Origin: a virus
Direction: 5' to 3' (one strand)
Length of the DNA stretch: 33,723 nt
IMG/VR virus record: IMGVR_UViG_3300032322_003144
Coordinates: 1 to 33,723 of that record
A program made the translations under genes and the position numbers. How positions within the stretch are numbered: position 1 is the stretch's first letter; each line of letters begins with the position of its first letter. Under the pieces are notes generated by a model, which was given only the letters and a program-made list of their open reading frames with translations, was not told where the DNA came from and did not search any database. This document shows positions 2,867 to 32,101 of this stretch, piece after piece.

Positions 2867-3001
2867 ATGAACACGCCAGCAGATCGCATACCGAAATGGG
2901 ACAAAGAGCAACGCCCTCAGCTGCTATGGGCGGAGAGCTTGTTGCTGGCTGTAAGAAATGACTTGCGAATCAAGTTGGACAGGTGGTTTGCGGACCCGTG
3001 A
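2867..3001 (+). CDS. Possible 44-residue protein
   Basis: A short plus-strand frame, starting MNTPADRIPKWDKEQ and ending in LDRWFADP, with a well-mixed, charged composition. No clear ribosome binding site. It lies directly upstream of the dyad-rich region before the SIR2 gene. It could be a small leader gene, a remnant or chance. Not recognised. Confidence 0.3.
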   Translation: MNTPADRIPKWDKEQRPQLLWAESLLLAVRNDLRIKLDRWFADP

Positions 3002-3128
3002 GCTACAGCTAGTATTAGCTCAAGTTGACTCCAAACTCATGCGCCAACTTGAGTTCGTCAGATCGCAGGAGAGGCGCGTACCTTGGTTATCGGAAAGGAG
3101 CAGACTGATCTAGCAGGTTCTCGGAACC
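2970..3128. promoter_or_regulatory. Dyad-rich control region before the SIR2-domain gene
   Basis: Three copies of CAAGTTG occur: 2971-2977 and 3021-3027 on the plus strand and 3045-3051 inverted. The last two form a perfect 9-bp inverted repeat, CTCAAGTTG (3019-3027) and CAACTTGAG (3045-3053). Next to it AGCTA-GTAT-TAGCT (3007-3020) is a second perfect dyad, and GGTTC-TCG-GAACC (3116-3128) a short hairpin. The arrangement suggests an operator controlling the gene starting at 3180. No consensus promoter could be fixed with confidence. Confidence 0.45.
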
Positions 3129-3179
3129 ATCCAATAATGAGTTATGCAATAGGATGCTTTCAATGATGTACTGAAGCCT

Positions 3180-4814
3180 GTGACTGATTATCTCTCATTT
3201 TTTCCAGCCCCCTTCCTTGAGGACCTTGTCGAAGGAAGATGCTTGCCTTTCATTGGCGCAGGTTTTTCCCTCAATGCGAAGATTCCACGAGGGAAGAAGA
3301 TGCTCGATTGGGTTGCGCTGGGCAAAAAGGCTGCGGAGTCTCTTCCTGAGTATCAGTACACCACAGCATTGGAAGCCCTTTCCGCTTATTCACATGAATA
3401 TTCGCGGGTAAAACTGGTTGAGTTCCTTGAAAGTGCTTTGCTTGTAAATACTTTGCAGCCAGCAAAGGCTCACGAAGAGTTTTGTAGACTTCCTTTCGAG
3501 AAGGTGGTTACCACAAACTTTGATTTCCTGCTAGAACAAGCGTATAGCCGAATCAGTCGGTATTGCGTTCCACAAGTATCTGAAGATCAGCTGGCCGTAA
3601 GCAACTCTAATGCCGCTGTTCAACTTCTAAAGCTCCATGGTGATCTGCATCACCCTCATAGGTTAGTTGCAACGGAAGAAGATTATGATTCATTCCTTAT
3701 TAGATTTCCACTTCTTGCGACACATCTTTCGAGCTGCCTTATAAATCATACCGCACTCTTTCTTGGGTATAGCTTAGACGACCCGGACTTTAGGCAGATA
3801 TGGCAGTTGGTAAAAGAGCGTCTTGGCTCGTTGAGACGCCCAGCATATGTAATCCAAATGTCGTCTGCTCCACATAACATAGCGCGATACGAAAGACGTG
3901 GGGTAAAGGTGATTAACCTGCCCAAGATCCAATCACGCTCATATTCAGAGACACTTGAACAGGCCTTGCGGGAACTTCGTGAGTACTGGAGCCAGCAGAT
4001 TATTGCCCGAAGTACCGCCACAGAACCTGAGCCTCAAGCAGAGTTGTCTCTTCCGGACGATGCACGTACACGCCTCGCGTTCTTTTCTGTCCCCACAAGA
4101 CTTGCTGCTCTTTATAAAGACAAGATTTATCCGCTTGCAGAAAAGTATGGATTTAATCCAATCATGGCAGCCGATGTCTCTGCACCAGGTGATAATCTAA
4201 TGGCTAAGATCTACGCCCTTCTCAGGCGTTCAGCAATTGTAGTCGCTGATGTTGGAAGTCCTAATACTATGTTTGAGGTTGGTATGGTTCTTTCCGGTGA
4301 GGGAGGTGATAAGCCAGTTATCCTGATCTCCGAAGATCCACCAAATCTTCCATTTGACATTAAGGACCATATCTTTATCCGGAGGCCTGCCTCACTTGAA
4401 AATGAGTCGTCAAAGTTCATAAAAGAGCTGGAAAAAGCATTTTCTTCGGCATTTGAGCTTATATCTCCTTCTCTTGAGGATGAGCCTAGTAGACTTCTCT
4501 CAAAAAAGGAGTATCGAGCATCCGTCATCGCCGTTTTCTCATCTTTGGAACATGAGCTTAGGCAGCTCTTGGCTTCTTCAGGCCTGGATGCATTTGCATC
4601 GAGATCCTCGCTTACAATGCTTCTTGATTTTGCCAACAGCAAAGAACTGTTGACAAAAGAGGATTTCTATCAGCTTAGAAAACATGTTATGGTGCGAAAT
4701 CGAATCGCACATACACGAGCGGAAGTAACTCCTGTGCAAGCCAAAACAATCGTCACTGAAGTCAGTGCTGCCATTGTCAAGCTCCGTTTGACGATAGATG
4801 GCAATGGAGTGTAA
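3180..4814 (+). CDS. SIR2 - deoxyribosyltransferase-like - HEPN multidomain protein (candidate anti-phage effector)
   Basis: A 544-residue protein with three parts. Residues 1-270 are a SIR2-like domain: GAGFS (26-30), TTNFD (111-115), KLHGD (151-155, putative catalytic His153) and LFLGYSLDDPDF (193-204). In defence proteins this domain usually hydrolyses NAD+. Residues 296-425 have a Rossmann-like fold of the nucleoside 2-deoxyribosyltransferase/TIR/SLOG type, with AIVVADVGSPN and MFEVG (Asp357, Glu366 at the usual catalytic places), so it may bind or cut a nucleotide. Residues 440-544 look like a HEPN domain with the RNase motif RNRIAH (Arg506, His511). The start is GTG at 3180; an in-frame stop lies at 3150. 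Base composition is clearly poorer in GC than its neighbours (28 of 60 bases at 3601-3660), a sign of transfer. The likely partner gene is downstream at 4999. Confidence 0.8.
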   Translation: MTDYLSFFPAPFLEDLVEGRCLPFIGAGFSLNAKIPRGKKMLDWVALGKKAAESLPEYQYTTALEALSAYSHEYSRVKLVEFLESALLVNTLQPAKAHEEFCRLPFEKVVTTNFDFLLEQAYSRISRYCVPQVSEDQLAVSNSNAAVQLLKLHGDLHHPHRLVATEEDYDSFLIRFPLLATHLSSCLINHTALFLGYSLDDPDFRQIWQLVKERLGSLRRPAYVIQMSSAPHNIARYERRGVKVINLPKIQSRSYSETLEQALRELREYWSQQIIARSTATEPEPQAELSLPDDARTRLAFFSVPTRLAALYKDKIYPLAEKYGFNPIMAADVSAPGDNLMAKIYALLRRSAIVVADVGSPNTMFEVGMVLSGEGGDKPVILISEDPPNLPFDIKDHIFIRRPASLENESSKFIKELEKAFSSAFELISPSLEDEPSRLLSKKEYRASVIAVFSSLEHELRQLLASSGLDAFASRSSLTMLLDFANSKELLTKEDFYQLRKHVMVRNRIAHTRAEVTPVQAKTIVTEVSAAIVKLRLTIDGNGV

Positions 4815-4907
4815 CCATTTTAGATAGAAAAGTTTTTATCTTTGGACTGGCATAACATCAAGATTCAGAAGACGGGTGCGGAGTGGTGGGGCATATCCTT
4901 GATCTCT

Positions 4908-4953
4908 GCCCGCTTCTGATCTTGGCGTTAACTAATACCCTGAGAGAGATGTC
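4908..4953 (+). repeat. Imperfect direct repeat, copy A
   Basis: This stretch resembles 6248-6292. Both carry GCCCGCT(T)TCTGAT, then TTGG, then CG(T/C)TAAC, then CTGAG(A/G)GAG and GTC, in the same order and orientation with small gaps. The copies bracket the PIN-like gene. Either a duplicated regulatory element or a scar of insertion. Confidence 0.45.
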
Positions 4954-4961
4954 AGAATTAG

Positions 4962-4967
4962 TATAAT
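4962..4967 (+). promoter_or_regulatory. Candidate -10 box before the PIN-like gene
   Basis: A perfect TATAAT lies 31 bp before the ATG at 4999, in the 184-bp gap after the SIR2 gene. No good -35 box is seen at 16-18 bp spacing, so a separate promoter for the second gene is possible but not shown. Confidence 0.35.
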
Positions 4968-4998
4968 CAAATCCAATCGATGGCAGCCAGCACACCCT

Positions 4999-6159
4999 AT
5001 GCCAAAATTGGATGAACAATATGTTGCAAAAAGAATTGTTCAGCATCTCGAGTATCCTGAGATATCAACCAATGCTTACGTTAAGCAAAAGATAATTGCA
5101 CTTGGCGCTTCGCTCTCTAGCCTCATAAAGGTATATCTTGATAAGCGATTTTGGATCTTACTTCGAGATGTCCATATGGGCAGATCTTCTTATCCAGATA
5201 TTTGCAGACTTCTCGACACGCTAAGACTATCCGTACAGAAAGGTTATCTCATCTGCCCGATCAGCGACTCAATCTTTCTTGAATTGCTAAAGCAGGAGGA
5301 TATCAATACTCGGCGATCCACGGCTGAGCTGATCGACGAATTAAGTCTTGGAATCACTCTTGTTCCGAACCAGCAACGTACTGGGCAAGAGCTTGTCGGT
5401 GTCTTTACTAAGTTTGCAGATGCTGGCAGAGATTTTCATATAGTTGATCATCTAGTCTGGTCGAAACTTGGATATGTTCTTGGTGTTGTTCATCCATCGT
5501 TGCCATCTTCAGATCCTGATGGCGAACGAGCTATCCAGAAGGCCTTTTTTGACCTTATGTGGGATTTCCCCTTGGCAAATCAGATAAACACGATTGGCGA
5601 GGATGGATACCAAAAGCCAGTGTCGTTTGAGGCCACTGCCAATAGGATAAATGCGCTTAACCGAGAGCATCAGGCAGACGTTCGCGATTTCAGGCGAGTG
5701 TATATCGATGAATTTAGGGGGATGCTAAGCCTTTGCATGCATCACCCGCGACAGTGGATTGAACAACAGTACGAGCTTAAGACAGGCGAGAAATGTCTTT
5801 CAAGTCCCGAGCAGATACGTAAATACGAACATGAGCTTCATATATTCTTCGGGAATCTTATTTCCCAAAAAAGGGAAGCAGCATTGATGCTGCCAACTCT
5901 GCACATCAGTGCTTTGTGTTACTCGGCCATACGCTGGGACAAGAAACGCAACTTATCTGCAAATGACATCTATGACTTCCAGCATGCCGCGGCAGCGATT
6001 GGGTATTGCGATGCATTTCTAACGGAGAAGCCATTGATGAATCTTCTAGCTCAGCGACAGCTCAAGATAAATGCTGACTTCCGATGCGCTGTAATCTCTG
6101 ACATCGAAGAAGCCAATCAGTGGATTTCAAGCAAATCAGCTAAGTCGGCAATGGGTTAG
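4999..6159 (+). CDS. Large PIN-like nuclease-domain protein, putative partner of the SIR2 protein
   Basis: A 386-residue protein not matching any family I know by name. Three segments fit a PIN-like nuclease: YLDKRFWILLRD (46-57, Asp48), SIFLELLKQ (91-99, Glu95) and, near the C-terminus, NDIYDFQHAAAAIG followed by DAFLTEK (Asp326, Asp338, Glu343), matching the spacing of the D, E and D...T(D/E)K motifs of PIN RNases. Between Glu95 and Asp323 is a long helical insertion of over 200 residues, making it three times the usual PIN length. No membrane segment. It follows the SIR2 gene on the same strand after 184 bp and shares its AT-richer composition, so the two were probably acquired together. 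I infer an RNase or tRNase role, perhaps as toxin or regulator. Confidence 0.65.
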   Translation: MPKLDEQYVAKRIVQHLEYPEISTNAYVKQKIIALGASLSSLIKVYLDKRFWILLRDVHMGRSSYPDICRLLDTLRLSVQKGYLICPISDSIFLELLKQEDINTRRSTAELIDELSLGITLVPNQQRTGQELVGVFTKFADAGRDFHIVDHLVWSKLGYVLGVVHPSLPSSDPDGERAIQKAFFDLMWDFPLANQINTIGEDGYQKPVSFEATANRINALNREHQADVRDFRRVYIDEFRGMLSLCMHHPRQWIEQQYELKTGEKCLSSPEQIRKYEHELHIFFGNLISQKREAALMLPTLHISALCYSAIRWDKKRNLSANDIYDFQHAAAAIGYCDAFLTEKPLMNLLAQRQLKINADFRCAVISDIEEANQWISSKSAKSAMG

Positions 6160-6247
6160 ATTTATCTACATTGAAAAACTTGCATGGATTGCCTACATCT
6201 AGATGCATAAGGCGGGAGCAAAGGCTTATTTCTGTCCCGAGCCGCTG

Positions 6248-15054: not shown

Positions 15055-17052
15055 TTGCTATATTGCTATCCTTACTTCCAGATCCATGACATGCAACTCA
15101 ACATGGAGAAACCTCAGAGAGCAACTCGTAATTTCAGCATTGTCAAGCCTAATCATATGTCCAGAAAGCCAGAAGGAGTTTCGAAATTCATGTGGCTTAA
15201 AGGAAGCAGCGATGAACTATTTGTAGTCATCCACGGATATTCCTCGTCGCCCGAAGACATGTCTTCGCTGGTCAGCATAGTCGACGAAAAATATGAACAC
15301 TCAATATTGATTCCCGAGTATGACGCGTCACTGCTATCTACCACCGACCCTAATTGCATTGTGCGTGACATTCTATTGCGTATCGATGAATTATATAAAG
15401 AGAAAAAATTTGAGAAAATAACATTAATAGGACATAGCCTAGGTGCTCTTCTTGCAAGAAAGCTTTACGTATGTGCCAACTGTCAGAAAAAAGAGATATC
15501 TTTTGAGACGACATTCGCGAATTTGGAGAATTCTGGAGAATGGAGCCCAAAGGTTAAGAACATAGTTCTATTGGCTGCCTTGAACCGTGGCTGGATGATC
15601 ACTGAAAAGATGTCCATCCAAAATATGTTTAAATTCAAGCCCGCAGAGTTAGTCTATAGTTTGCTAATCCCATTTGAGCGATGGACTGGCAAACCATTAA
15701 TATTCTCCATCAGAAGAGGCGCCCCCTTTATAACGCAATTACGCCTGCAGTGGCTTGAAATGAAGCGTTTGAAGCCAAGCAGTGTTTCAGTAACGCAGCT
15801 TTTAGGAAGTATAGACGACCTAGTCTCTCCCGAGGACAATTTAGATCTTGTAACTGGAGAAGACTTTGTCTATCATGACGTTCCTCATACTAATCATAAC
15901 AACATACTTGAAATGATTGGGCAATCTGAGGAATGCTCTGAAAGGGCTAGACTTCTTCGAAATGCTATTGCTTATAGCGGTAAAGACAAACAAAAAGAAA
16001 CTACCGCAGACAATGATTCAATTAAACCCGATCCAGTTGTTCCTGGCGTAACTATCGGAGACTATGATCCAATTAAAGCTGATCCAAATGTTACAGATGT
16101 CGTCTTTGTTATCCATGGAATTAGAGATTTTGGGTATTGGACTCAAAAGATCGCCAGGAGAATAAAATTGCTATCCAAAGAGGTTAAATCCCTTCCAGAT
16201 AAAACCGAGACTAGTTGCGAGGAACAGACTAACTCAAAACGAAAGATAATAATGAAGACAGAGACTTCTGCATATGGATATTTCCCAATGCTTTCTTTTA
16301 TCCTTCCAGCGCAGAGAAGGGCGAAAGTTGAATGGCTAATGGATCAATATACCGAAAATAAAGCACTTTACCCAAATGCCAATTTTCATTATGTTGGGCA
16401 TAGTAATGGTACCTATCTCCTCGCAAAAGCGCTACAGCTATATCCCGCATGCAAGTTTTGTAATGTAGTCTTTGCCGGAAGCGTAGTTCGCAGAAGCTAT
16501 CCCTGGGATAGAATTCGACAAAATGGCCAAATCCAGTCCTTGCTTAATTTTGTCGCTACAGGAGATGCGGTTGTTGCATTCTTTCCCAAATTATTTCAGG
16601 TTCTTAGAATCCAAGACCTGGGTAGCGCTGGCCATGATGGATTCAACTCTATCGAGAAGAATTCAAACAATAAAGAGGCAGGTACTAATGTGAATAAGAA
16701 TAAGAGTCAATTTCTTTTCCTGGATAAGGAGGCAAACTTAACGGAAATCCGATTCATCACTGGTGGCCATGGGGCTGCGCTTAACGAGGACAACTGGGAC
16801 GCTATTGCCAATTTTATTTTAAGTGGTTCTCTTTCGGAGAAGGACTTAGATCAGAGTCTGATAAATAAGAAACAAAATCGTTTGATTGCGGCCATTGGAG
16901 CAGCTCCCTATTTGGTCTGGATCGTAATACTCGCGCTTCTCTTCTACATGGGCAGCTGGCTAATGCCATCTATTGCAATTGCCGAGTGGATAAGGGGTCT
17001 TATGTTTGCTTTGTTCTTATGGTTAATTTGGACTATTCTAACAAGAGTTTAA
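15055..17052 (+). CDS. Tandem alpha/beta-hydrolase with C-terminal membrane helices (candidate defence or exclusion effector)
   Basis: Up to 665 residues (TTG at 15055; ATG at 15091 or 15103 also possible). Two serine-hydrolase halves are visible. Half one: oxyanion HG (60-61), GHSLG (126-130, Ser128), then GSIDDLVSPED with the Asp and VPHTNHNN with the His. Half two: HG (354-355), GHSNG (448-452, Ser450), TGDAVVAFF with the Asp and TGGHGAAL with the His. So both triads look complete. The last 60 residues hold two hydrophobic spans (around YLVWIVILALLFYMG and GLMFALFLWLIW), anchoring it in the membrane. AT-richer than its neighbours (25 of 60 G+C at 15421-15480) and opposite in strand, so it is probably acquired. 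I infer lipase or esterase activity near the membrane; the substrate is unknown. Confidence 0.75.
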   Translation: MLYCYPYFQIHDMQLNMEKPQRATRNFSIVKPNHMSRKPEGVSKFMWLKGSSDELFVVIHGYSSSPEDMSSLVSIVDEKYEHSILIPEYDASLLSTTDPNCIVRDILLRIDELYKEKKFEKITLIGHSLGALLARKLYVCANCQKKEISFETTFANLENSGEWSPKVKNIVLLAALNRGWMITEKMSIQNMFKFKPAELVYSLLIPFERWTGKPLIFSIRRGAPFITQLRLQWLEMKRLKPSSVSVTQLLGSIDDLVSPEDNLDLVTGEDFVYHDVPHTNHNNILEMIGQSEECSERARLLRNAIAYSGKDKQKETTADNDSIKPDPVVPGVTIGDYDPIKADPNVTDVVFVIHGIRDFGYWTQKIARRIKLLSKEVKSLPDKTETSCEEQTNSKRKIIMKTETSAYGYFPMLSFILPAQRRAKVEWLMDQYTENKALYPNANFHYVGHSNGTYLLAKALQLYPACKFCNVVFAGSVVRRSYPWDRIRQNGQIQSLLNFVATGDAVVAFFPKLFQVLRIQDLGSAGHDGFNSIEKNSNNKEAGTNVNKNKSQFLFLDKEANLTEIRFITGGHGAALNEDNWDAIANFILSGSLSEKDLDQSLINKKQNRLIAAIGAAPYLVWIVILALLFYMGSWLMPSIAIAEWIRGLMFALFLWLIWTILTRV

Positions 17053-17202: not shown

Positions 17203-17898
17203 TCAATCAACCGGGAAAGCAACCACCCGCACTGAGCAGGCATCAACAATCTGAATCCACTGCTCGCGGCTGATCCCTAACCGCTCCAACATCTCGCTCA
17301 CACCCACCCCTGATGTCAGCAATCGCTGCCCACGCGCGTGAAGCTCCCGCCATGTCGGTGGCACCTTCAGCAGGAAGCCATTGTCCCGCAAAAAGTGTGT
17401 GATCTCTCCATTGGCGTAGGTGCGCCCGTAGGGCCGGAAGGGTCCCCGTGAAGGGTCGTAGCGGCGGGCCGCTTTGATCAGCCCAATCATCGCCAACTGC
17501 AGCAAGTCCTCCTTGGGGTGAACAGTGCGCCGAGCGAAGTTGCCAGCGATCTTCTCCGCCAGGCCCATGTGCTCAAGCGCCAGGGCATCTGCCGCGGCAT
17601 GGGGTCGCACGGGGCGCTGACGCCGTGGCCGGCAGCGGGAAGCCTGCCGGGCCGGAGCCCTCGGCGGGTGCCGTGCCGGCTCTGCCCAGTTGATCTCCAG
17701 CTGCCCCGCTTCCGCACAACAGGCCGGCCGGCGATAACGCCGTTGCCGCAGCATCCGCACCGCAGCGGCAGGTGTCCCCACCAGCACCACCGGGACCGGA
17801 AGCGACAGCTGCAGCACCGCCGGCTGCCCATCCACAGCCGCCAGAGTCTTCGGCGGTGACTGCTCAGAAGCTTCCAGGACTGCACCCGTCATCGGCAT
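17203..17898 (-). CDS. Sigma-70-like factor lacking region 4
   Basis: A 231-residue protein. Residues about 110-175 match sigma region 2: MGLAEKIAGNFARR, EDLLQLAMIGLIKAARRYDPSRGPFRPYGRTYANGEITHFLRD. This contains the core-binding helix and the -10 recognition helix. A region-3-like segment follows (WRELHARGQRLL, ERLGISREQWIQIVDACS) and the protein then ends, without a region 4 for the -35 box. The first 105 residues are basic and Pro/Ala-rich. It could direct late transcription from -10-type promoters or bind core polymerase as an inhibitor. It follows the large terminase gene after 7 bp. Family assignment is firm; role inferred. Confidence 0.8.
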   Translation of the reverse strand: MPMTGAVLEASEQSPPKTLAAVDGQPAVLQLSLPVPVVLVGTPAAAVRMLRQRRYRRPACCAEAGQLEINWAEPARHPPRAPARQASRCRPRRQRPVRPHAAADALALEHMGLAEKIAGNFARRTVHPKEDLLQLAMIGLIKAARRYDPSRGPFRPYGRTYANGEITHFLRDNGFLLKVPPTWRELHARGQRLLTSGVGVSEMLERLGISREQWIQIVDACSVRVVAFPVD

Positions 17899-20915: not shown

Positions 20916-21626
20916 TCACCAGGGCCGCATACGACTCACATAACCAGTCCATGCCGCTGCCCAGGCCGCCAGGCATTCCTCGCGGGAATACAGCGGCGAG
21001 AAGCGCGTCTCCCCTGGCCGGGCCCAGATCGTCTGGCCGGCGGCGTAGTGCACCCCCCAGGTTGCTTCCAGGGCCATGTAGCCGCCCAGCTGGGCGCGGG
21101 TGCAGTAGCTGCTGGAGTTTGGCGCTGAAAGAGTTTTGAGGTCGGCAAGTACCCGCAGGCCGCTGGCCTGCTGGATGTAGCCGGTGTCGTAGGTGCCGGC
21201 CAGGTTGCGGATCAGGCAGCAGGTGGGCCGTTCAGAAGCGATCACCGTTACTTGCCGCCAGTGGGGGTGGGCCAGCAGGGGCTCGATCCAGACCCGGTAG
21301 TCGCCACCGCGCAGGTGCTGCAGCAGCTCGCTTGCCTGCTGCCGCTGCTGGGGCATGGGGTGAAAGCGGCTATGCAGCAGGGCCTCCAGCGCCAGGTGCA
21401 CGGTGTGGCCGCGCGGCTCCCAGACGTGGCGAGTGGCCTCGATGCGGGCCAGCGCCCAGGCGCTCTTGGCTGAACCGACCACACCGGTGATCGACACCGC
21501 GAACAGGTGATCTCCCAGCCAGTAGCGGTGCTCAGGGTCGGTGCGCCGCAGGCCTGGGATCGGCGCCAACCAGCTGGTCGCCGCGATCTGGTGATCGAAG
21601 ACACGTCCGGTGGTTATCAACGTCAT
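20916..21626 (-). CDS. RecB/Cas4-like PD-(D/E)XK nuclease
   Basis: 236 residues from the ATG at 21626. The motif series is GHTVHLALEALLHSRF (73-88, first helix with His and Glu), AGTYD (143-147, Asp147), ADLKT (161-165, Asp162 and Lys164) and QLGGYMAL (179-186), that is the order E, D, DxK, QxxxY of RecB-type nucleases. All key residues are present, so it is probably active. A role in end processing for recombination with the Rad52-family protein, or in replication, is likely. It begins next to the iteron array, 404 bp after the primase-helicase stop. Confidence 0.75.
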   Translation of the reverse strand: MTLITTGRVFDHQIAATSWLAPIPGLRRTDPEHRYWLGDHLFAVSITGVVGSAKSAWALARIEATRHVWEPRGHTVHLALEALLHSRFHPMPQQRQQASELLQHLRGGDYRVWIEPLLAHPHWRQVTVIASERPTCCLIRNLAGTYDTGYIQQASGLRVLADLKTLSAPNSSSYCTRAQLGGYMALEATWGVHYAAGQTIWARPGETRFSPLYSREECLAAWAAAWTGYVSRMRPW

Positions 21627-21659
21627 CACCAGAACCTCACATGAAACACAAAATTGGTT

Positions 21660-22024
21660 GGATTCTTTGGACCCCGTTGCAGCGCAGGGGATCTGGGCAG
21701 ATAATCGAACTTGGGATTCTTTGGATTCTTTGGATTCTTTGATCCCCAAGGGCTTTCGACTTCTGGAAACGGGGTGCCGCAAAGAATCCAAAGAATCCAG
21801 AGCGGATCCAGCCCCCTTATGGCGTCAAAGTGCCTGCGCTGGAGGGAGATCCAAAGAATCCCAAGAATCCAGCCCCCTCTCCAGAGGACGTAGCCAAGTG
21901 GCAGCCGATCAGTGGTGGCTAAGCAGTGGCCAGCAAAGAATCCAAAGAATCTCGAGAGAGTCCGCTTAGCCAGAAGCGTCAGATCAATTGCGCTGGAGGG
22001 TGATCCAAAGAATCGCAAGAATCC
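21660..22024. repeat. Iteron array, candidate replication origin or operator cluster
   Basis: Twelve 9-bp units of GGATTCTTT or its complement AAAGAATCC, exact or with one mismatch. Plus orientation: 21660-21668, and three exact tandem copies at 21714-21740. Minus orientation, in five-base-perfect pairs: 21781-21798, 21853-21870, 21935-21952, 22007-22024. Four units point one way, eight the other. A 41-bp block is also duplicated with three mismatches (21836-21876 and 21990-22030). The last copy overlaps the stop of the primase-helicase gene. Such tandem 9-bp units beside a primase-helicase gene are typical of iteron origins. No convincing gene lies in 21627-22029. Confidence 0.8.
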
Positions 22025-22029
22025 AACCC

Positions 22030-24564
22030 CTATAGATCGAACTCACGCGCCAGCCACTCCGCACCGGCGTCACTGAGCCCATAGCGGAGGTAGTAGCTCG
22101 CGCCGCTGGTACCCACCCGGGTGGCCGTCACCAGGCCATCGAGGCTGCCGAGAAAGCGGCCCATGGCCTTGTAGCTGGTCAGCGCTTCCCCCTCGAGGTC
22201 CCGCTTGAGCCGAGCCTCCGCCGGCGCCAGGTCTATTGCTTGCAGCAGCTCCAGCAGGCCCACTCCGGCAAGGCCATTGGCGTGGAGAACCTGGAGATAA
22301 CGCAGGGCCTCTTTCTGCTTCTCACTGGCCTTGCGCACCCGCTGGGCGGCGCGATCGAGATCGCTCTCCTGCTCCTGCTGCTCCTGCAGATCGTCGTAGG
22401 TGCCGAGCCTTGAGAAGGTTCCGCTGTTGCCGTCAATCGCCACCACCAGATCCGCTGGTGGACCGGAGCGGGCCTCGCGCACCAGGCGCCGCTGGGGCGA
22501 ATCCTTGATCAGGCGGTTGCCCCTGGCCAGGTAGTGGAGGGTGAGGATCGTGTTGGCCGCACCGGCGATGGCGTTGTGGCCAGAGAGGGCCTCGGTGCCG
22601 GTGGTGTCGTTGGCCTTGTTGCAGTGGTGAATCAGCAGCAACGTGCCGCCGGCATCGGTGACCTGGTGCTTGAGGTCGTAGATCAGCGAGCCCATCTCCG
22701 GGTCGTTCTCGCCAAAGCAGCAGCTGCGGGTAATCGAGCGCAGCGAATCGAGGATCACCACAGCGCCGGGGTGTGCGGCCAGGCACGCCAGCAGGGCATC
22801 GAGGTTGGCCTCAGTGACGCGGAAGCGGCGTGACCAGAGCAGCAGCGGGTGATCCCAGATCCCCAGCTGCTGCAGCATCTGGGCGGTATCGCCATCGCCT
22901 TGGTCATCGCTCACCAGGATCACCGGCCGCGGTTGCTCCGGCGCCCCGAAACCGAGAAAGTCCTCGGCGCAGAGCAGGCAGCGGGCTAGGGCGTGCACCA
23001 GCCGCGTTTTGCCCACCTTGGCCCGGCCGCCCACGATCGTCAGATCCTGCTTTGGGATACAGCCGGGGATCTCCCACTGCACCACCGGTGGGGGCATCGC
23101 AGAGCGCTCGTCTGGTGTGAGGGCGCGGAAGCGGTTGCCGTTACGCAGGTCAAGGGCCTCAAGGGTGAGCTGGCCGATCTCCTGCAACCGCAGGGCGGTC
23201 TTGAGTTCCAGCGCGGCATGGCACTCCCGCACGCGAGCCGAGCGGCGCAGGCTGTTGCGCTCACGCCCAACTAGGGAGCGGATGCAGTACTCCAAGGCAT
23301 TGAGGCGGCGGTTGATCGGTAGGTGCACCTTTCCCCAGCGCACCTGGGTGTCAGCTCTGGGCGAGAAGCGATGCTGGCCAGTGCCAGAGACAGATCCGTT
23401 TGTGCCCCTGGCGTTAATGCTGCTGGTGCGGTCGCTGCTCCTGCCACCGGGATGCCGCCCGCCGGTATCGCCCTGGCTCCGCTGGCTACCTGAAGCTTGC
23501 GATCCAGGTGGCCTGGGGTTGGGGTTGCTGGCGTTGCAGCAAGACTGCGGCGGCAGCCAGCCGTGCTGGCGTGCGTGGAACCAGAAGGTGGCGGCGCTGA
23601 TCTGCTCACCACCGGAGCTGGCGACCTGGCGGATGTCCCAGCCGCAGCTGGCCGAGGGGCTGTGGGCCTCCATCAGGGCGATCGCCAGCTCGCGGTCTTG
23701 ACCGGCCTGCTCGCAGGCCTCGATCAGGCCCCAGAGAAGGTTGCGAAAGTCGGCGTAGGTGTTGCTGCCAGCAACGCGCCGGGGGATAGCGGCCAGGGCG
23801 GCTCGGATCTCCTCCAGCGGGCGGGGCGGTCCGAACTCTTCGTCGCCTAGTTCGGGCAGCGGGATACCAGTTGCTGGGCTCTCGATTACTTGCTCCAGGG
23901 AGATGGCTGGTTGCGGCGCGGGCTCTGGCGCTGGTTCGGCGAACTCATCGGGCAGCAGAGCCAGGGCGATGTCCTCGGGCACGTAGCGCTGGCCGCTGAC
24001 GTGTACCAGCTCCACCAGAGCGATGGGCTCACCGCTGGCATCGACGTACCAGCAGCCCGGTAGGCGCATCACCCGCGAGGCGTCCTTGCAGTGGGGGTCG
24101 CCGCCGGCGTAGGCGATCAATTCGGCTTGCAACGGCTCCCATTCTTGAGTCGGGATGGGTTGCTGCAGCACCCAGTAGCAGTGGGCCGACTTACCGCCGC
24201 TGAGCACGATCAGCGATGGTTCCGGCAGCCCGAGTTCCCGCCAGGCCGTCAGCTGCCAGGGGATCGGCCGGTCGTCCCACTCCACGAACAACGCCCGGCA
24301 GGCCGTGATCTCGCTCTTACGGTCACCGCCGTCGTTAATCACCAGGTAAACGCCGCGGCCTTCGCGCTGCCACTGCTCCGCCAGTTCCAGATCAAAAGGG
24401 CCTTTGCGGGCGCCGATCTCACCCTTGGCAGGGTTGGCGCGGTGGGGAAAGGCGCGCAACCGAGCCTTAGCAGGGCTCTTTCCAAGCAGGGAAAGGAATT
24501 GCTGGGCGGCGCCGTGGTCGATGCAGGCCTGTGCAGGGGCGGCCGCCGGTTCAGCGCTGGCCAT
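22030..24564 (-). CDS. Primase-helicase fusion (RepB-like primase with RepA-like ATPase)
   Basis: An 844-residue replication protein. Residues about 1-200 look like a primase of the archaeo-eukaryotic/RepB type: VEWDD (94-98) and SGGKSAHCYWVL (122-133). Residues 260-336 resemble the PriCT linker domain. After a Gly/Ser-rich hinge (345-405), residues 500-720 form a RecA-like ATPase: Walker A GGRAKVGKT (512-520), Walker B VVILDS (602-607), then GTLLLIHH (640-647). The C-terminal 100 residues look like a winged helix, probably binding DNA. It should prime and unwind the phage DNA from the adjacent iteron array. The upstream ribbon-helix-helix gene overlaps it by 14 bp. Confidence 0.85.
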   Translation of the reverse strand: MASAEPAAAPAQACIDHGAAQQFLSLLGKSPAKARLRAFPHRANPAKGEIGARKGPFDLELAEQWQREGRGVYLVINDGGDRKSEITACRALFVEWDDRPIPWQLTAWRELGLPEPSLIVLSGGKSAHCYWVLQQPIPTQEWEPLQAELIAYAGGDPHCKDASRVMRLPGCWYVDASGEPIALVELVHVSGQRYVPEDIALALLPDEFAEPAPEPAPQPAISLEQVIESPATGIPLPELGDEEFGPPRPLEEIRAALAAIPRRVAGSNTYADFRNLLWGLIEACEQAGQDRELAIALMEAHSPSASCGWDIRQVASSGGEQISAATFWFHARQHGWLPPQSCCNASNPNPRPPGSQASGSQRSQGDTGGRHPGGRSSDRTSSINARGTNGSVSGTGQHRFSPRADTQVRWGKVHLPINRRLNALEYCIRSLVGRERNSLRRSARVRECHAALELKTALRLQEIGQLTLEALDLRNGNRFRALTPDERSAMPPPVVQWEIPGCIPKQDLTIVGGRAKVGKTRLVHALARCLLCAEDFLGFGAPEQPRPVILVSDDQGDGDTAQMLQQLGIWDHPLLLWSRRFRVTEANLDALLACLAAHPGAVVILDSLRSITRSCCFGENDPEMGSLIYDLKHQVTDAGGTLLLIHHCNKANDTTGTEALSGHNAIAGAANTILTLHYLARGNRLIKDSPQRRLVREARSGPPADLVVAIDGNSGTFSRLGTYDDLQEQQEQESDLDRAAQRVRKASEKQKEALRYLQVLHANGLAGVGLLELLQAIDLAPAEARLKRDLEGEALTSYKAMGRFLGSLDGLVTATRVGTSGASYYLRYGLSDAGAEWLAREFDL

Positions 24565-24739
24565 GGAGCCCCGAGCGCTGGCGGGGCTTGCTGACGAGCT
24601 GGTCGCGTTCCATGGCCTCGGCCACGATCAGCCGGATCACCGAGGAGCGCGACAGCAGGCCGCCGCGGGTGCGCTGGTCCAGCCAAGCCTGCTGCTGGGG
24701 CGTGAACTGCACCGACAAAGGCGTCATCAACGGAGCCAT
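24551..24739 (-). CDS. Ribbon-helix-helix DNA-binding protein
   Basis: A 62-residue protein. TPLSVQFTPQQQAWLDQRT is a strand and helix, and LLSRSSVIRLIVAEAMERD is the second helix, the pattern of CopG/Arc-type dimers. Its tail (PRQRSGLHGQR) is basic. It overlaps the primase-helicase gene and starts the replication transcript, so it probably autoregulates the operon or binds the divergent promoter region 24740-24876. Confidence 0.75.
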   Translation of the reverse strand: MAPLMTPLSVQFTPQQQAWLDQRTRGGLLSRSSVIRLIVAEAMERDQLVSKPRQRSGLHGQR

Positions 24740-27879: not shown

Positions 27880-28154
27880 TGACCCACCACGCCAATTTCC
27901 GCCTGTGCGAAAGGGGAAAGAATCCCAAACTGCCGGCCTTCTGCCGCACCCGCCGGCAAAGCGCCACCACCGTGCGGGTAAGCAGCCTGCAGCAGCTGCT
28001 GTGGTTGCAGTGGCTTGTGCTGGCGCTGCAACTGAGCACGATCTTGCTGCTGCTCGCCGGCCCGTTGTCAGCTCCCACCAGAGAGCAGGCAGGAGCCCCC
28101 CTCGCCGCCACTGGCGCAGCTGGCGCCACTGTCCTCTCGCCTTCTCAGCCATGA
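27879..28154 (+). CDS. Small membrane protein
   Basis: 91 residues. A basic N-terminus (LCERGKNPKL, CRTRRQS) with two Cys, then one strong hydrophobic segment (about 41-61, LLWLQWLVLALQLSTILLLLAG) and an Ala/Ser-rich tail. The start overlaps the preceding stop by one base (TGATG). Function unknown; it may be a superinfection-exclusion or membrane accessory protein. Confidence 0.5.
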   Translation: MTHHANFRLCERGKNPKLPAFCRTRRQSATTVRVSSLQQLLWLQWLVLALQLSTILLLLAGPLSAPTREQAGAPLAATGAAGATVLSPSQP

Positions 28155-31603: not shown

Positions 31604-32101
31604 ATGGATCTTTATCTCTCATCTAGCCCTGAAATAGCCTCATCCCGTTCATTGGTGATCGCGGCCGGAGGCGGCCGTGATCTGGCCTGGCCCCAGCAGC
31701 GGGTTGCCGCTGAGCTGCTCGCCCGCAGCGGTGGCCGGCTGGTGCATTTGCTCCTCCATGGCGGTGCCCGCGGCGCTGATGCCGCCATTGGTCGCGCTGC
31801 CCAGCAGCTGGGTTGGTCAGCTCTGGTTATGCCAGCTAAATGGCAGCTCCACGGCCGGGCCGCTGGGCCAATTCGTAATCGGGCTCTGCTCGAGCAGGCC
31901 ATTGCCCGGGCCGTCGCCCACAGCTCACCAAGCTGCCTCACCTCAGTGCAGGTAGTCGCCTTCCCCGGTGGCCCAGGCACCGCCTCGCTGGTGAGAGAAG
32001 CCCGCCGCATGGCATCCCATTCCCCGGTGCCGATCTCAGTGGCCGAGGTCAGCCCATCAGCAGGGCTCTGGGCCGTGCCGGCTGGCGTCGGCCGCTCCTG
32101 A
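31604..32101 (+). CDS. SLOG-domain protein (DUF2493/YspA-like)
   Basis: 165 residues. The order VIAAGGGRDLAWP, HLLLHGGARGADAAIGRAA, VMPAKWQLHGRAAGPIRN and VVAFPGGPGTASLVREAR matches the DUF2493/YspA group, which has a Rossmann-like nucleotide-binding fold. Members bind nucleotides or nucleotide-derived ligands; exact reactions are mostly unknown. It leads the plus-strand Gp157-Rad52 group and starts 32 bp before the stop-free region used by the next gene. It might be involved in nucleotide sensing. Assignment to the family is firm, function not. Confidence 0.85.
   Translation: MDLYLSSSPEIASSRSLVIAAGGGRDLAWPQQRVAAELLARSGGRLVHLLLHGGARGADAAIGRAAQQLGWSALVMPAKWQLHGRAAGPIRNRALLEQAIARAVAHSSPSCLTSVQVVAFPGGPGTASLVREARRMASHSPVPISVAEVSPSAGLWAVPAGVGRS

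Follow-up and report, generated by a model that had tools for sequence, protein, structure and literature searches.

Introduction

The winged helix of P4 alpha lies at the C terminus, and its primase is of the TOPRIM type. In the account of P4 given in PMC4234260 (citing Ziegelin and Lanka 1995 and Yeo et al. 2002), primase, helicase and the winged helix that binds the origin repeats are parts of one protein. The pRN1 origin is located directly 3′ of its PrimPol-helicase gene (PMC4234260). For the PLE RepA, the DNA-binding domain and the origin have been exchanged together, and replication required a matched pair (PMC8263062). The origin of phage lambda lies within the O gene, whose product binds the iterons (PMC6022878); it is made up of four iterons and an AT-rich element (PMC3349717), and extra origin copies halt lambda replication (PMC4488673).

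The locus described here, an array of 9-bp repeats next to a gene for an 844-aa PrimPol-helicase, shares with iteron-type origins the tandem direct repeats beside or within the initiator gene. As in P4 alpha, primase, helicase and a (modelled) winged helix are joined in one protein, but they comprise an AEP PrimPol and a RecA-like AAA_25 helicase instead of a TOPRIM-type primase, and both the unit sequence and the convergent 9-bp layout differ from the P4 origin. The order AEP PrimPol, helicase and C-terminal winged helix is that of pRN1 ORF904 and Bordetella phage BIP-1 (PMC4234260). In these two, the helicase is of the SF3 type and the origin is a stem-loop that lacks iterons, in contrast to the RecA-like AAA_25 helicase and the iterons found here, and no convincing 9-bp inverted array was seen at the reported origin place of BIP-1. 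The PLE satellites of Vibrio cholerae offer the parallel of a binding domain that co-varies with the origin, the remainder of the initiator staying conserved. However, PLE are satellites with a RepA_N-type binding domain and iterons of ~30 bp, whereas the present case is a phage with a winged helix and 9-bp units, and only two PLE specificity groups are described in PMC8263062. Lambda O, an iteron-binding phage initiator with an in-gene origin, resembles one distant clade of the family treated here; unlike the present protein, it has no fused primase or helicase. A literature search found no laboratory test of this PrimPol-helicase family.

Results and discussion

Genomic setting of the array

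The window, that is, the whole stretch of DNA analysed, is a 33.7-kb virus record with genes for terminase, portal, major head protein, scaffold, an integrase-like protein and an antirepressor. The virus is prophage-like (temperate) and belongs to cyanobacteria of the Cyanobium clade. The array is found between the stop codon of the PrimPol-helicase gene and an exonuclease-like gene:

22030..24564, minus strand: PrimPol-helicase gene, 844 aa, with N-terminal AEP, RecA-like AAA_25 helicase and C-terminal winged helix
20916..21626, minus strand: PD-(D/E)XK exonuclease-like gene just past the array, likely ATG at 21626
24551..24739, minus strand: gene for a small RHH-like protein, upstream of the primase, without Pfam match

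The best solved relative of the AEP PrimPol domain was the PrimPol of cyanophage S-2L (6zp9, E 2.7e-26, profile positions 20-173), with 71% DNA identity over ~240 bp; no 9-bp array was found in the region next to the S-2L gene. The helicase domain matched AAA_25 (E 8e-22), and no SF3 family was among the listed matches. The C-terminal region of the protein had no family match. A search for a RepA_N domain in the 844-aa protein was negative, and the domain make-up differs.

Units and layout of the array

The array is composed of twelve 9-bp units, eight being exact copies of GGATTCTTT and four having one mismatch; the core GATTCTTTG is exact in 10 of the 12. As originally predicted, the units are present in both orientations, as a single unit, a triplet and four pairs, with a step of exactly 9 bp within every group. 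Read in the sense of the primase gene, eight minus-strand units come first (pairs at 22007/22016, 21935/21944, 21853/21862 and 21781/21790), followed by four inverted ones (a triplet at 21714/21723/21732 and the single unit at 21660):

21660..22024, both orientations: 9-bp iteron array, proposed replication origin
22007..22024, minus strand: unit pair 1, CGATTCTTT and GGATTCTTG
21935..21952, minus strand: unit pair 2, GGATTCTTT and AGATTCTTT
21853..21870, minus strand: unit pair 3, GGATTCTTT and GGATTCTTG, within the duplicated block
21781..21798, minus strand: unit pair 4, two exact GGATTCTTT
21741..21780: central 40 bp, flanked by the two convergent halves; helicase assembly or opening is proposed to take place here (layout observed, function inferred)
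21714..21740, plus strand: inverted triplet, three exact GGATTCTTT
21660..21668, plus strand: inverted single unit
21822..21876: 55-bp block with a copy at 21976-22030, 84% identical

Shuffling the region left 0.33 unit sites on average and never more than 3, compared with the 12 observed, and lag 9 was the strongest in the autocorrelation of the region (z 4.0). Only one further exact copy of GGATTCTTT occurs in the window, at 27917. The duplicated block had been described as 41 bp long. The duplication was recovered but extends over 55 bp, with ~41 bp forming a core that is conserved better than the rest, and a third copy of the longer module is partial and inverted, around the single unit.

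The GC content of the array is 53%, compared with ~65% in its surroundings. No strongly AT-rich opening element was found within it, the only AT-rich sequence being a short leader near 21626-21659. The GC-skew scan proposed earlier as a check showed no switch at the array, which in a mosaic temperate genome speaks neither for nor against an origin. No known RNA element was detected in the array, and two weak terminator-like matches were iteron sequence. In a check for large stem-loops, the array strand folded better than its shuffles (z -5.9), which the inverted iterons account for.

Array types in close relatives

The comparison set consisted of 19 close relatives with proteins 84-91% identical, found in IMG/VR contigs and in genomes of the Cyanobium clade, Vulcanococcus and Microcystis elabens. 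Every one with an intact PrimPol-helicase/exonuclease junction had an array at the same place. Three types were recognised: type A, GGATTCTTT, to which the window array belongs; type B, GGAAACTTN mixed with GGATTCTTN; and type C, NNNTTCTTT. A long open frame runs through the array, a single one in nearly every close relative; since 9-bp repeats inflate such frames, we make no claim on a coding relic.

Types were assigned from the array alone, and their association with the flanking sequence was followed by sliding ANOSIM along the RHH-like gene, the primase gene, the array and the exonuclease gene. R was ~0 upstream of about residue 760, jumped to 0.98 at the C-terminal domain, reached 1.0 in the array and was down to ~0 within ~130 bp of the exonuclease gene. 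In blocks, R was 0.15 for the RHH-like gene, -0.04 for the AEP, 0.04 for the helicase, 0.17 for residues 741-770, 0.64 for 771-785, 1.00 for 786-812, 0.85 for 813-829 and 0.60 for 830-844. The array itself had 1.00, the leader 0.59, the first 120 bp of the exonuclease gene 0.31 and its remainder -0.02. These block distances replaced a two-breakpoint mapping of each sister pair, which was dominated by gaps.

On the tree of the protein body, at least 10 type changes were needed (shuffled mean 9.2), a parsimony count on a recombining gene that serves as a guide and is not exact, and the tree of the last 78 codons needed 2, the minimum. All six sister pairs on the body tree differed in type, two of them having incomplete or divergent downstream sequence. 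Each time the type switched on this tree, the winged helix switched along. The array type and the recognition helix/wing are exchanged together as a cassette. Two hybrid cases, L021 and L045, had type C winged helices and some A-like units in their arrays; such mixing would be tolerable because C units contain the A core.

The two relatives L023 and L047 are broken prophages, each broken at the specificity cassette: the primase gene is cut off within the winged helix (~residues 801-807), and the array is gone. In the Cyanobium FGCU52 assembly, near-identical replication genes of type B (L019) and type A (L020) are found on different contigs, possibly as co-resident prophages of different replication type. 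In another case (L013), the N-terminal half could barely be aligned with the AEP half of the window protein and the helicase-winged helix half was the same, so the priming module may also be exchanged.

The winged helix as candidate reader of the array

The part of the protein that co-varies with the array is its C-terminal domain:

22033..22368, minus strand: C-terminal winged-helix domain, residues 733-844, with recognition helix 792-806 and wing 812-830 (from the model)
22129..22209, minus strand: residues 786-812, the segment matching array type perfectly (ANOSIM R = 1.00)

Residues 733-844 were modelled by AlphaFold as a winged helix (pLDDT 94.6). Five residues separating the types (796, 799, 800, 806 and 807) are in or at the recognition helix and three (818, 820 and 821) in the wing; residue 787 also separates them. 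The closest folds (Z 8-9) were MarR/ArsR regulators, ORC winged helices and the pNOB8 centromere-binding protein. That the P4 origin-binding domain is missing from the fold matches listed does not speak for a difference. The winged helix of a distant family member was modelled with less confidence (pLDDT 80), and its elements follow the same order.

The original prediction had named the array the best origin candidate and either the primase-helicase or the RHH protein as its binder. The comparison of relatives strongly supports the array as a candidate origin and the primase-helicase as its probable reader, in that, of the sequences nearby, only the C-terminal winged helix of this protein varies along with the array type. 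Binding by the RHH-like protein, with an R of 0.15, is not supported, and this protein can be set aside as the specificity factor.

The winged helix and the array are neighbours on the DNA, so a single crossover can move the two, and this linkage must explain part of the association. A reading in which another phage or host protein binds the array, and the winged helix merely moves along as its neighbour, would also fit the partial association on the other side (the leader and the first 120 bp of the exonuclease gene). We consider it improbable. The association is strongest at the recognition helix and wing and does not rise steadily towards the array, being low at residues 741-770, and the neighbouring RHH-like gene is unassociated. 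R falls again at residues 830-844, nearer to the array than the peak, which argues against linkage as the whole cause of the association, although this block is only 45 bp long. Furthermore, the proteins of L039 (type A) and L040 (type C) are identical at residues 725-795 and diverge from the recognition helix on, and their arrays differ too.

Iterons often cause incompatibility. Together with the pNOB8 plasmid protein among the structural matches, this could point to a centromere-like partition or incompatibility site of a plasmid-like prophage state. The window carries an integrase-like gene, however, its relatives sit in cyanobacterial genome contigs and the window genes scanned included no recognisable partition ATPase, all of which makes a partition site very improbable. 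We retain the reading of the array as the origin read by the winged helix.

Conservation of the layout in distant family members

Members with 36-77% identical helicases had entirely different units, e.g., TGGGGTCAG, GTGACACTC, TGGAATCAA and CCTCAACTA, but also CCGTGACAA, TCCGGACAA, TGGATCCCT and others. A lag-9 repeat signal after the helicase was present in 16 of 24 family members, compared with counts of 1, 1 and 2 for three control regions taken from these loci (22-24 regions each); in L072, L051 and L065, the top lag was not 9. The convergent two-half layout, with forward units followed by inverted ones, was complete in 9 of the 14 members tested and partial in the rest. The 9-bp step and the convergent layout are conserved, and the unit sequence is not. 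It had been argued earlier that a period of 9 bp must mean different binding of adjacent units. As worded, this is not supported: the family as a whole keeps the 9-bp step, which is more likely its normal packing step. No homologues of the helicase-winged helix half were found among named phages.

In one clade (L050, L052, L053, L055, L058, L059 and L074), the array lies inside the gene, 3′ of the winged helix, where its translation gives three-residue repeats. A common DPxW-type motif follows at the end of several of these proteins, and with this shared ending after the array, translation through it looks real.

These arrays bear on two further readings. Repeats of triplet codons can yield 9-bp repeats, and the exact GGATTCTTT triplet had two matches in other viral contigs (L103 and L104), where it is a coding repeat in unrelated sequence without a primase. 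That the array is likewise a low-complexity or recombination by-product without a bound protein is nevertheless most improbable, given both orientations, a conserved order and the same step across lineages with unrelated units, in coding and noncoding sequence alike. The array could instead be a transcriptional operator, bound by the winged helix of the PrimPol-helicase or by another factor, which controls the exonuclease gene and beyond and has no role as an origin. Its place directly before the start of the exonuclease gene and the similarity of the winged helix to MarR/ArsR regulators would agree with this. On the other hand, no sigma-70-like promoter was found in 21500-22150, the genes on both sides of the array run in the same direction, and the candidate binding domain shares its polypeptide with a primase and a helicase. 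An array within the translated tail of an initiator gene is odd for an operator and known for an origin, as in lambda gene O (PMC6022878). We regard an operator without origin function as unlikely.

Proposed mode of initiation

Taken together, the comparative data suggest that the array is probably the replication origin of this temperate phage, read by its own PrimPol-helicase via the C-terminal winged helix. The best reading is a P4-alpha-like logic that is built from other parts (the primase is archaeal-type, the helicase RecA-like) and includes an exchangeable specificity cassette. One winged helix would read one 9-bp unit, and tandem units would set neighbouring protomers every 9 bp, each step turning by about -51 degrees. 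Each of the opposed halves could assemble one helicase ring near the central 40 bp, with the helicases face to face. The helicase would then open the duplex at the centre and the AEP domain would prime, leading to bidirectional theta replication.

Exchange of the cassette would render replicons non-interfering, or free them from origin-directed attack or decoys. The arrest of lambda replication by extra origin copies indicates one possible reason for the diversification of types. More speculatively, and with doubt outweighing confidence, we propose a previously undescribed family of initiators, whose winged helix, being part of a PrimPol-helicase, would line up head-to-tail at 9-bp intervals to form two opposed filaments. 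The protein geometry would fix the step, and the sequence read would diversify freely under frequency-dependent selection by co-resident prophages, decoys or origin-directed nucleases, with replication types acting like immunity types. The data suggest that temperate phages diversify their replication specificity as they do with repressor immunity, FGCU52 having two types in one assembly. Among the relatives, initiator domains and origins come in matched pairs, a natural series with three types close by and about ten further out, which differ at few named residues and bases. With this series, the winged-helix recognition code and the switch of origin specificity become directly testable by a one-helix swap.

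Other features of the window

Two islands of low GC content were noticed. The first (3000-6200, ~45% vs 65%) carries a SIR2-like gene at 3180-4814 on the plus strand (Pfam SIR2_2, E 5e-27; PADLOC ThsA, E 2e-33) and a 386-aa gene without known family; it is located among the head genes and probably represents defence cargo. The second (15055-17052, plus strand, 41%) lies between the portal and sigma-factor genes and encodes a 665-aa alpha/beta-hydrolase-like protein without PADLOC match. The gene adjoining the large terminase (17203-17898, minus strand) encodes a protein with sigma-70 region 2, a sigma factor that this temperate cyanophage supplies itself. Near the integrase end, a small YspA/SLOG-like protein is encoded at 31604-32101 on the plus strand.
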